Below the pieces are notes generated by a model, which was given only the letters and a program-made list of their open reading frames with translations, did not search any database and had not been told where the DNA came from. From Candidatus Fermentibacterales bacterium (GTDB taxonomy: Bacteria > Fermentibacterota > Fermentibacteria > Fermentibacterales > JAFGKQ01), in the NCBI GenBank assembly GCA_016928495.1, contig JAFGKQ010000148.1, positions 1-10,437 of the forward strand: 10,437 nt of DNA, written 5' to 3'. Shown here piece after piece: positions 275 to 4,518 of the stretch. The translations under genes were made by a program, and so were the position numbers. The stretch's first letter is position 1; the number at the start of each line of letters is the position of its first letter.

Positions 275-1132
275 TCAGCTCCGGCTGACCGCTCGCGTCA
301 GCAAGGACGGGCTGGTGACGCTGATGGCGGGGATGCCGGCATATTCCTCCCCCATCCAGGGCAGTCCGAGCAGCATCCTGCAGGTCGAGAGAAGGCCCTC
401 CGTGGTCAGCCCCAGGAGCGGATGACCGGGGTCCGGAACGATGTCCGGGCCCGTCATGAGCACCCATGCCCTGTCCCCTTCCCCTTTTCCCGGGGCTATC
501 AGGACGAGGTTGAGGGCAGCATCACCACTGGCTGCAAGCTCCTGCCATGGTTCCAGGGCCCTGAGGAACTCGGCCTCGGAGAGGGCATGAAGCCTGACCA
601 GGCTCAGCTCCGGCATGTACTTGACGAGGAGCCCGACCAGGGAAGCCTGCCGCCCCGATTCGAGAGACAGGTCGAACGCCGGGCCGGTGACCTCGCTCAG
701 GAGAGCAGGCGGCTCGCACATGACCAGCCCGGAGTCGCCCCGTCCGAACTGCACGCTCATGATCTCGCCGGGGTCCGGGGCGCTGGTCGGGTCCAGCTCC
801 ACACCACTGGTCATGATCAGAAGACCTCGCTCCATCGCGGAGCCTGCCAGGAGCCTCTGGATGTCCCGACCATCGAGCCCCGATGGGGAGAGAACCGTGG
901 CGGCGGCCCGGGGACCAGACGCGGCCGCCAGCTCGTCCATAATGGTTCGTGACTGGCTGCTACCCTCCACGAGCAGCACGAGAAGAGGCGTAGCCTCCCA
1001 ATCTGCCGGGGCTCCCGGAGCCGTGCCCGATGCGGCTCCCTCTCCTCCACAGCCCGTGCCCAGGGTCGAGAGCGCGCACAGAGCTGCCAGGACCGCTGCA
1101 AGAGAGGTCCTCCCGTTCGATCCTGAGAGCAT
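275..1132 (-). CDS. Putative exported lipoprotein of unknown function
   Basis: This encodes 285 residues. The ATG at 1132 is preferred because a GGAG sits 5 nt upstream and a hydrophobic signal segment follows directly (about residues 10-25), ending 'LGTGC' with Cys28 as the likely lipidated residue. The lipobox is imperfect, with Gly rather than Leu at -3. A Gly/Ala/Pro-rich linker (29-46) leads to a compact domain starting 'TPLLVLLVEG' (48-57). I do not recognise the family. The first strand and the C-terminal 'GLTTEGLLSTCRMLLGLP' (241-258) loosely recall the first strand and the 'TT.diaPTil.lLGlp' end of alkaline-phosphatase/sulfatase-fold enzymes. However, the metal-binding Asp positions are not evident, so any such relation would be to an inactive form. 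The start lies 2 nt after the stop of the pseudo-protease gene, so the two are probably translationally coupled. The frame stays open upstream to 1363, but that part overlaps the neighbouring coding region and has no signal sequence. Confidence 0.7.
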   Translation of the reverse strand: MLSGSNGRTSLAAVLAALCALSTLGTGCGGEGAASGTAPGAPADWEATPLLVLLVEGSSQSRTIMDELAAASGPRAAATVLSPSGLDGRDIQRLLAGSAMERGLLIMTSGVELDPTSAPDPGEIMSVQFGRGDSGLVMCEPPALLSEVTGPAFDLSLESGRQASLVGLLVKYMPELSLVRLHALSEAEFLRALEPWQELAASGDAALNLVLIAPGKGEGDRAWVLMTGPDIVPDPGHPLLGLTTEGLLSTCRMLLGLPWMGEEYAGIPAISVTSPSLLTRAVSRS

Positions 1133-1134
1133 TG

Positions 1135-2685
1135 CTACTCCGTTACGGTAAGTCTGGCCGTGGCTCCCCCGCTTCCGGACCAGAGAAGGAGCATGTACGA
1201 GCCTGGCGCGATGCCCTCGACCGGGATCGCGAGCGAATGCTCTCCGGCATCGCACCACCCGTCGTAGAGAAGCCCGATCATCCTGCCGGAGAGATCGAAG
1301 AGCACCAGCCTGACGCTGTCGGCCTGCGGCAGATCGAACAGAGCGCTGGCGCTGCTTCCGCACGGGTTGCCCGTCACGCTTAGAGACACCTGCGCCGGAC
1401 CGGGCTGCTCACCGGATCCCAGAACCTGATCCACGCTGAAATCGTAGGTGTGATCCGGGCCGCCTGACTCCGCCACGCCGGGGAAGAACACGGCGTAGTC
1501 CCAGCCATCCGGATCGACGGACACGCCGAGGGTGCAGGCGGGGGCGGAAGGCTCGTAGAGATACAGCTCGCTGCTGCCCGACGTGTCCCACAGTATCACC
1601 CCGAGGATCCAGCAGACGTCATCGCTGCCGTCGAAGTCGAATCTGAGCCAGCCGCTCTGGCAGGCCCGGAGGTCGACCCTGATCCAGTGAATCCCCCAGC
1701 TCTCAGGCGGATGGGGACCCTGATCACCGGCGTAGGGCAGCGACGTCACGTCGTGGTCGGGGAAGACGTAGGGGCCGGGCGTCCAGCCCGCTGCCTCGTC
1801 GTCCCAGGTCTCCCCGTCATGCCAGTTGGGTCCCGTGAACCACCTCCAGCAGCCGTACTCCGCGAAGGCTCGCCCGAGGGTCATTTCGTGACCGCCGAAC
1901 ACGTCCGCGAGCGCTTCGGAGAGGTTCTGCCCCCAGGCATCCGCGCAGCTCTCCCAGACCTCCCTGACAGCGGATTCCCCCAGCCTCAGGGAGATGTACC
2001 TGGGCCAGATGCAACCGCCGAGGCAGTAGCCGGGAGGACCTGCGGCCATGCAGTCGAGCCAGGGCTTCCTCAGGGGGTTGTCCCCCTCATGGAGGTAGTT
2101 CCAGTAGTCGTCGACCGAGTCGAAGACCATGTCCTCCATCCAGGTGGCGCAGTTCTCCATGAACCAGACAGGCTCGTCCACGTCGTAGGCCATCTGAACG
2201 GCGTTCTGGAAGTAGTGTGCGATCGCGACCCTGGCGATGTCCTGCTCCAGGCCGCTGCTCAGCACGATGAAGCTTGCTCGGTCGTTGCTGGGGGTCGCCG
2301 GATCCCGGGGCTCCCCGGCGTACGAGCAGTAGCCGCGGCCGGTAGCAGCCATGACGTAGATGTCGTAGCTGTCGTCTCCGCCGCCCCCCTGGTCGGAGGG
2401 CGGCTCCAGATAGCCCATCTGTCCGCACTGGACCGCCAGAGCCGAGTCGGCAGCCTCGGCCAGCAGGTCCACGTAGGACTGGCTGGTGGAATCGGCCCCG
2501 CTGTGGGTCCAGTGAACCGTGAAGAACCCGCTGCCGGAAGCAGTAGTGCTCTCCGGCCCGCTGAGGGTGGGACGAGCCAGCGTTCCGGCAGCGCTGGCCC
2601 CTGCCGGAGCCCACCGCGCAGCTTCCGGAGGTCCGGAGACGGCAATGGCCAGGGCTGCCAGCAGCGTGACGGCGGCAGTCCTCAT
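1135..2685 (-). CDS. Secreted MXAN_6640-like metalloprotease paralogue with degenerate active site (pseudo-protease)
   Basis: This encodes 516 residues with a signal peptide (about 1-20). The start has a strong GGGAGG 5 nt upstream. It aligns along most of its length with the next gene upstream: 'ARPTLSGPE' (37-45), 'EPPSDQGGGGD' (94-104), 'SYDIY' (106-110), 'GEPRDPATPSND' (124-135), 'WFMENCATWMED' (174-185), 'YGCWRWFTGP' (277-286), and a C-terminal T9SS/FlgD-Ig-like domain (about 436-516, 'VLFDLSGRMIG'). The zinc motif is gone: where the paralogue has HEFQH, this protein reads HYFQN (157-161, bases 2203-2217), so catalytic Glu and the second His ligand are replaced by Tyr and Asn. The candidate third ligand, Glu177, remains. 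It also lacks the roughly 75-residue pro-region. It has no internal stop or frameshift and has kept its export features, so it looks like a maintained non-catalytic protein (binding, decoy or inhibitor role) rather than a decaying pseudogene. That role is inference. It carries about a dozen Cys, suggesting disulfides. Confidence 0.87.
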   Translation of the reverse strand: MRTAAVTLLAALAIAVSGPPEAARWAPAGASAAGTLARPTLSGPESTTASGSGFFTVHWTHSGADSTSQSYVDLLAEAADSALAVQCGQMGYLEPPSDQGGGGDDSYDIYVMAATGRGYCSYAGEPRDPATPSNDRASFIVLSSGLEQDIARVAIAHYFQNAVQMAYDVDEPVWFMENCATWMEDMVFDSVDDYWNYLHEGDNPLRKPWLDCMAAGPPGYCLGGCIWPRYISLRLGESAVREVWESCADAWGQNLSEALADVFGGHEMTLGRAFAEYGCWRWFTGPNWHDGETWDDEAAGWTPGPYVFPDHDVTSLPYAGDQGPHPPESWGIHWIRVDLRACQSGWLRFDFDGSDDVCWILGVILWDTSGSSELYLYEPSAPACTLGVSVDPDGWDYAVFFPGVAESGGPDHTYDFSVDQVLGSGEQPGPAQVSLSVTGNPCGSSASALFDLPQADSVRLVLFDLSGRMIGLLYDGWCDAGEHSLAIPVEGIAPGSYMLLLWSGSGGATARLTVTE

Positions 2686-3814
2686 CCCCTCCTCCCTTCG
2701 CGGCAGTTCAGTCTCCCGCCGGGTACGGGGAGGGCCGGAAGCGCGCTTCCGGCCCTCCAGCCCGGTACCGGCGGGATCGCCGGATTCCGTCTAGTTCAGT
2801 ACGACTCTGCTCGTGGCTGCTCCGCCCGGCGCGAACAGCCTCAGGAAGTAGGTCCCGCTGGAGAGGCCCTCGGCCCCCCAGACCACGCTGTGCTGACCCT
2901 GATCGAGCTGGCCCGAGTAGATGCTCTCGACCAGGCGACCGGTCAGGTCGAAGACGCTGAGGGTCGTCCAGCCCGACTGGGGCAGGTAGATCTCGACGGC
3001 TTGGCCGGCGGTCATCGGGTTGGCCGCCGGAGCCAGAGAGACGGCCGCGGGGCTTTCGCCCTCCTCCACGCCGGTCTGGTAGGTGATGTTCGCAACGTAG
3101 TCCTGGTCGATGGAGGTCTGGGTGACGGCCTGGACCACGAAGACCACCTCGTCGTAGCCCGTCGTCTCGACTCCGACCGAAAAGGTCGCCGGGACCTCGG
3201 TGACGTTCCAGTACTGGTACATCTCGTCGCCGCTGTCCTTGGTGCGGATAGCCCCGATCACGAAGTCCATGTAGTCGCGGCCGTCGAAGTCGAAGGTTAT
3301 CCAGCCCTGGTAGCTCGAGACGTCCACCTTGATCCAGTGGTGGCCCCTGGTCTCCGGGGGATAGACGCCCTGGTCGCCGCTCCAGGGGAGACTGGTGACG
3401 TTGTGGTAGTAGAAGATGTAGGGACCGGGGGTCCAGAGGGAGGCCTCATCGTAGTCGTAGTGCTCATCGTCGGCTTGGGGCCCCGTGAACCAGCGCCAGT
3501 AGGCGTACTCGGCCACCCACTCGGCCAGGCTCATGCCGTAGTGGTCGGCCGTAGCGTCCAGTGCCTCCCAGGTGTTCTGGGTGGTCACTGCCGCCATCTC
3601 CTCCCAGGTCATCCTGACGGAAGCCTGGCCCGCGCACCTGTTCTGTATGTACATGGGCCACGGAGTGGCGCCGTACCAGTACATGGGACCGGAATCGATT
3701 CTCCACCATGGCTTGCGGAGGCAGTTGTCTCCGGAGTGGAGGTGGTCCGTATAGGTGTTGTAGTCGTCCCAGCACTCGTTCTCCATCCAGGTGGCGCAGT
3801 TCTCCATGAACCAG
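2134..3814. repeat. 34-nt exact repeat shared by the two protease paralogues (2134-2167 and 3781-3814)
   Basis: The two copies, at 2134-2167 and 3781-3814, are identical base for base and in the same orientation. Both fall in codons for the 'WFMENCATWME' segment just downstream of the zinc-binding helix. They are part of the coding sequences, not a mobile element. The identity reflects the shared ancestry of the two genes; recent gene conversion or strong codon preference could also contribute. Coordinates span the pair, and the region between the copies is unique sequence. Confidence 0.85.
2715..2775. repeat. Nested inverted repeat with a perfect 30-nt palindrome (2729-2758)
   Basis: Bases 2729-2758 are a perfect palindrome: a 13-bp GC-rich stem, GGAGGGCCGGAAG with its complement, closed by a CGCG loop. 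Flanking it, cccgccgg (2715-2722) pairs with ccggcggg (2768-2775), with further short pairing (tac/gta) inside, so most of the 61 nt can fold into one long interrupted hairpin. It occupies most of the 105-nt gap between the metalloprotease stop (2791) and the pseudo-protease start (2685). In minus-strand transcripts it would be an intercistronic hairpin. There is no T-run after it, so it is not a classical intrinsic terminator. It could act in mRNA stabilisation, attenuation or processing, or be a dispersed palindromic repeat. Confidence 0.85.
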
Positions 3815-4518
3815 GTCAACTCGGCCTTGTCGTAGCCCATCTGGATCGCGTGCTGGAACTCGTGCGAGCAGGTGCCGCTCATCAGCTCCTGGCCGTAGGA
3901 CTGGTTGTTGCTCATGGCGATGTGGCTGGCCGAGTCGTTCTCGGGAGTCGTCGGGTCGCCCGGCTCGCCGGAAGAGGAGGTGTAGCCCAGGGTGCCGCCC
4001 GTGAGCTGCAAGATGTAGATGTCGTACTTCTCGTCTCCACCGAGGCCGAGGTCCGAGGGCGGCTCGTCCCAGCCCATGTCGTCGCACTCGTGCTCCCAGG
4101 ACCAGTCGAAGCCGTCGCCCAGGAACTGGGCCCAGGCCAGCGTGGTGGCGTCGACGCCCGAGGTGGTGTAGTGGACCTTGAAGTTGCCCCCGGGGGTGTC
4201 GTAGGTGTACTCCGGGCCGCTGAGCGAGGGCCTGGCGAGAAGACTGACTATCTCGGCGCGGACCTCCGCGCTGACATCGTCCAGAAGCAGCTCTGCCTCG
4301 TGGATCGCGGGGGTGCCGCAAGGGTCGCTGATCGCACCTTCGGTCAGCCCCGAGGGCAGACGATCGGGCGCAAGAACGCTGTAGACACAGTAGAGAGCGT
4401 AGTCATCGACGCTGAGGTCGCCCGCCTGTCGTGCCTCCATTATCCTGCCGAGGACGGTGTCCCCGGCGGCAGGCAGCGCGATCAGCGCGACGGCAAGCAG
4501 AAAGAACGCAAGACGCAT
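2791..4518 (-). CDS. Secreted zinc metalloprotease, MXAN_6640-like, with C-terminal T9SS/FlgD-Ig-like domain
   Basis: This encodes 575 residues. The ATG at 4518 is chosen over one 27 codons upstream because AAGGAG lies 5 nt before it and it opens straight into a signal peptide (1-19, 'MRLAFFLLAVALIALPAAG'). A pro-region-like segment follows (about 20-95) with 'YCVYSVLAPDRLP' and 'CGTP'. The catalytic domain starts near 'ARPSLSGPE' (95-103) and 'GGNFKVHYTTSG' (110-121). The gluzincin-type motif HEFQH is at 219-223 (bases 3850-3864), with Glu239 in 'WFMENCATWMEN' a candidate third zinc ligand. After 'YWRWFTGP' (340-347) comes a beta-rich region, then a C-terminal domain (about 495-575, 'VFDLTGRLVESIYSGQ' and 'SGTYFLRLF') of the T9SS type-A sorting / FlgD-Ig kind. 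The predicted product is exported and probably surface-attached or released. Substrate is unknown. The family match rests on motif order and recall, not a search. Confidence 0.87.
   Translation of the reverse strand: MRLAFFLLAVALIALPAAGDTVLGRIMEARQAGDLSVDDYALYCVYSVLAPDRLPSGLTEGAISDPCGTPAIHEAELLLDDVSAEVRAEIVSLLARPSLSGPEYTYDTPGGNFKVHYTTSGVDATTLAWAQFLGDGFDWSWEHECDDMGWDEPPSDLGLGGDEKYDIYILQLTGGTLGYTSSSGEPGDPTTPENDSASHIAMSNNQSYGQELMSGTCSHEFQHAIQMGYDKAELTWFMENCATWMENECWDDYNTYTDHLHSGDNCLRKPWWRIDSGPMYWYGATPWPMYIQNRCAGQASVRMTWEEMAAVTTQNTWEALDATADHYGMSLAEWVAEYAYWRWFTGPQADDEHYDYDEASLWTPGPYIFYYHNVTSLPWSGDQGVYPPETRGHHWIKVDVSSYQGWITFDFDGRDYMDFVIGAIRTKDSGDEMYQYWNVTEVPATFSVGVETTGYDEVVFVVQAVTQTSIDQDYVANITYQTGVEEGESPAAVSLAPAANPMTAGQAVEIYLPQSGWTTLSVFDLTGRLVESIYSGQLDQGQHSVVWGAEGLSSGTYFLRLFAPGGAATSRVVLN

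Follow-up and report, generated by a model that had tools for sequence, protein, structure and literature searches.

Does a gene that has lost the catalytic motif of its protease family, and that stands next to an intact paralogue, still encode a working protein, and what would such a protein do? The question is raised by a window of 10,437 nucleotides (the whole stretch of DNA analysed) from the metagenome assembly of a Candidatus Fermentibacterales bacterium (G000; 2.3 Mb, 81% complete, 337 contigs). Two genes of the MXAN_6640 family lie there in tandem, here called A (upstream) and P (downstream):

1135-2685, minus strand: P, pseudo-protease gene of 516 aa, orthologue of the downstream gene at a conserved locus
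2203-2217, minus strand: degenerate zinc/catalytic motif of P, HYFQN
2134-2166, minus strand: WFMENCATWME, retained in P
2791-4518, minus strand: A, intact paralogue of 575 aa, with HEFQH at 3850-3864 and the third-ligand Glu at 3802-3804

The codons at 2203-2217, read on the minus strand, are CAC TAC TTC CAG AAC. Together with the codons of A at 3850-3864 they confirmed the contrast between HYFQN in P and HEFQH in its neighbour made in the preliminary description, and WFMENCATWME after the motif was, as also described there, the same in both proteins. The first Glu of this stretch (codon 2155-2157) was invariant in the alignment, and from gluzincin anatomy we take it to be the third zinc ligand. 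The change from E to Y needs two base changes (GAG>TAC) and that from H to N one (CAC>AAC), a minimum of three, so that a single sequencing error is no explanation. HExxH was kept in 143 aligned members of the whole family and absent from four; for this reason, and given the number of base changes, the loss in P is by its sequence not a matter of chance. P passed the NF045524 profile (MXAN_6640_HExxH) with 147.2 bits against a cut-off of 140, and failed its HExxH criterion, making it a homologue and not a protease by motif. A reached 138 bits when scored alone and 140.0 in the genome scan. In HExxH peptidases, hydrolysis needs both the general base and the His ligands. Since P has lost the general base and carries a substitution at one of the two His ligands, it is very unlikely to be hydrolytic.

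The motif was not the only loss, and the features below concern the two ends of the proteins:

2571-2685, minus strand: signal peptide of P, joined by a short linker directly to LARPTLSGPE, with the propeptide-like N-terminal region missing
4231-4458, minus strand: helical N-terminal region of A, the putative pro-region, with a near-invariant CGT at 4312-4320
1135-1398, minus strand: C-terminal sorting-type domain of P, which matches a further C-terminal domain encoded in this genome at 43% identity (E 8.6e-16)

In relatives, ~65-75 residues separate the signal peptide from LARPxLSGPE, the start of the protease domain, and carry the near-invariant CGT, which is SGT in many. This N-terminal region (~65 residues) was entirely missing from P, and the earlier statement that only catalytic residues had been lost was thus wrong. 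It was present in 40 of the 41 other copies of the order that can be judged, a count that leaves out one fragment and one masked copy of the 43. The AlphaFold monomer model of A was poor (pLDDT 48, from three input sequences); the N-terminal region was the best-scoring part of this low-confidence model, a helical stretch with pLDDT 70-85. A search of solved structures found no true relative when A was the sole query; when a profile was used, the matches were confined to FlgD-like and gingipain C-terminal domains. We infer that the N-terminal region is probably a propeptide.

With respect to export, the frame of P was open over 516 codons without a stop, began like a signal peptide and was preceded by a purine-rich ribosome site (ggaggagggg), all in agreement with the preliminary description. 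Its C-terminus was of the sorting type by homology, as claimed, but did not reach the TIGR04183 model (no match at E up to 1), which A passed (8.4e-8). The T9SS type A sorting-domain model had 52 matches in the genome, which also encodes a SprA translocon (417 bits, neighbours in frame). Surface display of P appears likely.

We compared the locus among 42 genomes of the order, namely G000, the sole one of its family, and 41 others. Two further features of the window belong to this comparison:

275-1132, minus strand: lipoprotein-like gene, starting 2 bases past the stop of P and conserved in this position in many relatives
2714-2776, no strand: strong hairpin of nested inverted repeats in the gap between A and P, with a perfect 15+15 repeat at 2729-2758

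Across the order the locus was conserved. It comprises kdsD-kdsC-kdsA-kdsB, an outer-membrane-protein-like gene and a beta-CASP metallo-beta-lactamase and, running divergently from these, a single MXAN_6640 gene or a pair of them, after which the lipoprotein-like gene often stands. The downstream gene stood alone in many genomes of the family f2, and both genes were present in f3 and several f2 genomes. The tree separated an upstream from a downstream clade; A was the first branch of the former (100/98), and P grouped with the f3 orthologues in the latter (99/99). All 43 other copies in the order, of the upstream and downstream types alike, kept HExxH, and the HYFQN-type loss, sought in all 42 genomes, was found only in G000. 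HExxH is therefore, as far as can be seen from these copies, ancestral, and the loss in P derived and private to the G000 lineage. Two earlier expectations found no support in this comparison: that HYFQN members make up a conserved clade alongside HEFQH members, the single branch that carries the motif being markedly accelerated, and that an active and an inactive partner constitute a conserved system. A scan of genome contigs gave one distant Eisenbacteria relative only. We also considered that P might have converted A, since A and P have WFMEN and 34 identical bases in common while other upstream copies read WFKEN; gene conversion was rejected as unnecessary, because A branches first in its clade and may keep the ancestral residue.

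Is P still under constraint, or is it a redundant copy early in decay, with its active site recently lost and the rest not yet broken? A GY94-type codon model with branch-specific omega (12 sequences, 475 codons) gave 0.052 overall, 0.022 for the A branch and 0.049 (0.03-0.12) for the P branch, the last being an average over a long, nearly saturated branch of the one genome of its family, time before the loss included. Fixing the P-branch omega at 0.12, 0.20 and 1 gave 2dlnL of 3.9, 11.9 and 73, so omega = 1 was rejected. Synonymous change was near saturation (t_syn ~2.6 per codon), and the branch times of P and A agreed (2.70 and 2.45), as expected within one genome. The P-branch average mixes time before and after the loss; purifying selection may have continued after it. 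P kept 50 of the 56 order-invariant columns. Of its six departures, two were the catalytic E and the second H, one fell at the boundary of the pro-region and three lay elsewhere; for both catalytic positions to fall among five departures of 55 the hypergeometric probability is 0.007. At the protein level P had the longest branch in the order (1.36 vs 0.41 for A; domain-only end branches 0.55 vs 0.24), which indicates from the sequences that constraint is weakened or shifted. Over most of its branch P is thus, on the codon evidence, constrained and faster-evolving than A.

Early decay would agree with this longest branch, with a loss unique to G000 among the genomes of the order, and with one gene being dispensable, since a single copy suffices in most f2 genomes. 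If all of the excess over A were neutral, however, 2-4 stops would be expected, and P has none and no frameshift (probability of none 0.015-0.13, a rough figure); likewise 5-10 hits in non-catalytic invariant columns would be expected and ~3-4 were seen, again in rough figures. The missing stops argue against a long neutral decay, while a short recent neutral phase would be compatible with the data, and the two separate substitutions together with the loss of the N-terminal region point to an older change. We consider early decay rather unlikely.

Losses elsewhere in the family suggest what P may have become. Among 137 assessable members, 133 had HExxH and four did not: P, L150 in G185 (NVLSL), and one member each in G189 (HHFNQ) and G327 (HHVHQ). 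HHVHQ was also found in a third genome, G385, and the tree of the members needs three independent catalytic losses. The HHxxQ loss was common to these three genomes from two genera of the family f151, with NG86 dN/dS of 0.15-0.17 (approximate, at synonymous distances of 1.6-2.8) and a nearly identical core CQYAYSANE(L/F)GAWMEQ. An inactive form can thus, to judge by these sequences, be maintained in the MXAN_6640 family. In the HHxxQ clade (L186, L189 and L204) the dead active site is hyperconserved and a fibronectin-like stretch stands at the C-terminus; this clade is better suited than P to a test of maintained function. The third independent loss, in L150, came with a change of the third-ligand Glu of WWME to Gln; the protein is cut by the contig end, and its C-terminal part resembles PQQ-type propeller repeats.

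The N-terminal region was detected in none of the four degenerate members vs 97 of the 133 active ones (Fisher 0.0065, uncorrected for phylogeny), some of the 36 active members without it being truncated or just below threshold. This co-loss rests on three events, with one exception, L096:3740-5377 in G015, where most of the region was lost and HEFQH kept. A strict cysteine switch via CGT was weakened as a candidate, as many active members read SGTPA.

We favour, with moderate confidence, the explanation that P is a genuine, still-constrained pseudo-metalloprotease that is exported and binds in its old cleft without cutting. On this view P descends from the downstream member of an old tandem pair: E>Y removed the general base and H>N the second zinc ligand, the propeptide-like N-terminal region disappeared, and the signal peptide, the conserved core and the C-terminal sorting-type domain were kept. 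Hydrolysis at the locus would fall to A. P, exported to the cell surface, would hold a peptide or protein uncut in the former substrate cleft; it may present this substrate to either A or the cell, or protect A against inhibitors. Such a binding role appears the most likely one, as it fits a possible peptide-holding cleft, the export features and the constraint. P is by these features a real and probably functional pseudo-protease; that it has acquired a new function, an adaptive claim, is possible.

Whether P would do this together with A is the least supported step, and we regard such a partnership as improbable. One form of it, a sub-case of the favoured explanation, makes P a non-catalytic subunit or regulator complexed with A, like alpha-MPP or the inactive bacterial M16B partners. 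The adjacent co-directional genes, the same likely export class and the conserved locus would suit a complex, and tandem M16B pairs in bacteria are a precedent (PMC12731061). Yet the pair usually consists of two intact copies in the order, which implies no ancestral heteromer with a dead subunit, and the hairpin sits between the two genes. Further, neither the HHxxQ (f151) nor the NVLSL (G185) members had an active copy next to them in the stretches read; this makes a pair-specific role less likely and favours binding. Pairing with an active copy is thus, on present sequences, not a general rule among the pseudo lineages, and a complex of A and P seems doubtful. The earlier picture of a catalytically dead, constrained and export-competent-looking paralogue beside an intact one stands; its suggestion of a regulator or chaperone of the active protease is what these lineages weaken. 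A sequencing or assembly artefact is very improbable: the motif comes from one assembly of 337 contigs and the sole genome of its family, but at least three coordinated base changes without a frameshift, syntenic flanks on one contig and the independently missing N-terminal region stand against it.

Pseudopeptidases are best known from eukaryotes. The inactive ADAMs, AEBP1 and CPXM2 resemble P in having the general base and zinc ligands replaced and the fold kept: ADAM29 reads HHLGH, and AEBP1 has Tyr at the general-base position and Asn at one ligand position (PMC11266112). Known metallopeptidase pseudoenzymes serve as regulators, as scaffolds or in protein-protein interactions (PMC11266112). 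P differs in coming from a bacterial, uncharacterised family, and whereas the ADAM pseudo-peptidases are shown with a prodomain (PMC11266112), P is without the N-terminal region. Alpha-MPP and the bacterial M16B pairs TTHA1264/TTHA1265 and SPH2681/SPH2682 are inverted HxxEH clamshell peptidases and proven heterodimers; as in A and P, the partners are paralogous, one is without the zinc motif, and the bacterial genes are neighbours (PMC12731061). A and P, in contrast, are ancestrally an intact-intact pair, and a complex of the two would be putative. Within the NF045524 family, P has the same architecture of signal peptide and sorting-type domain, and lacks the family-naming HExxH and the N-terminal region. 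A literature search for MXAN_6640 gave no paper naming it in the library covered. If the favoured explanation is true, P would be a maintained exported bacterial pseudopeptidase in an uncharacterised family with at least three independent origins of such forms and joint absence of the N-terminal region, a natural experiment on the role of that region and on how a protease cleft can be reused without catalysis on the surface of bacteria. A more far-reaching reading, which we hold to be unlikely, is that MXAN_6640 proteins repeatedly become propeptide-less dead surface binders, that the co-loss marks the N-terminal region as a zymogen propeptide with the CGT cysteine possibly as switch, and that P works with A.

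The lipoprotein-like gene at 275-1132 had 24-30% identity to its counterparts after the pair in relatives, and a Pfam search gave no match. The hairpin between A and P was without a T run, had an RNA fold of -60.8 kcal/mol (z -2.8) and a core that occurred once in the genome; it possibly attenuates or protects the A-P transcript. Near the cleft region, at 1990-2070 on the minus strand (DCMAAGPPGYCLGGC), P had extra cysteines that relatives mostly do not have, a possible new disulfide or site.
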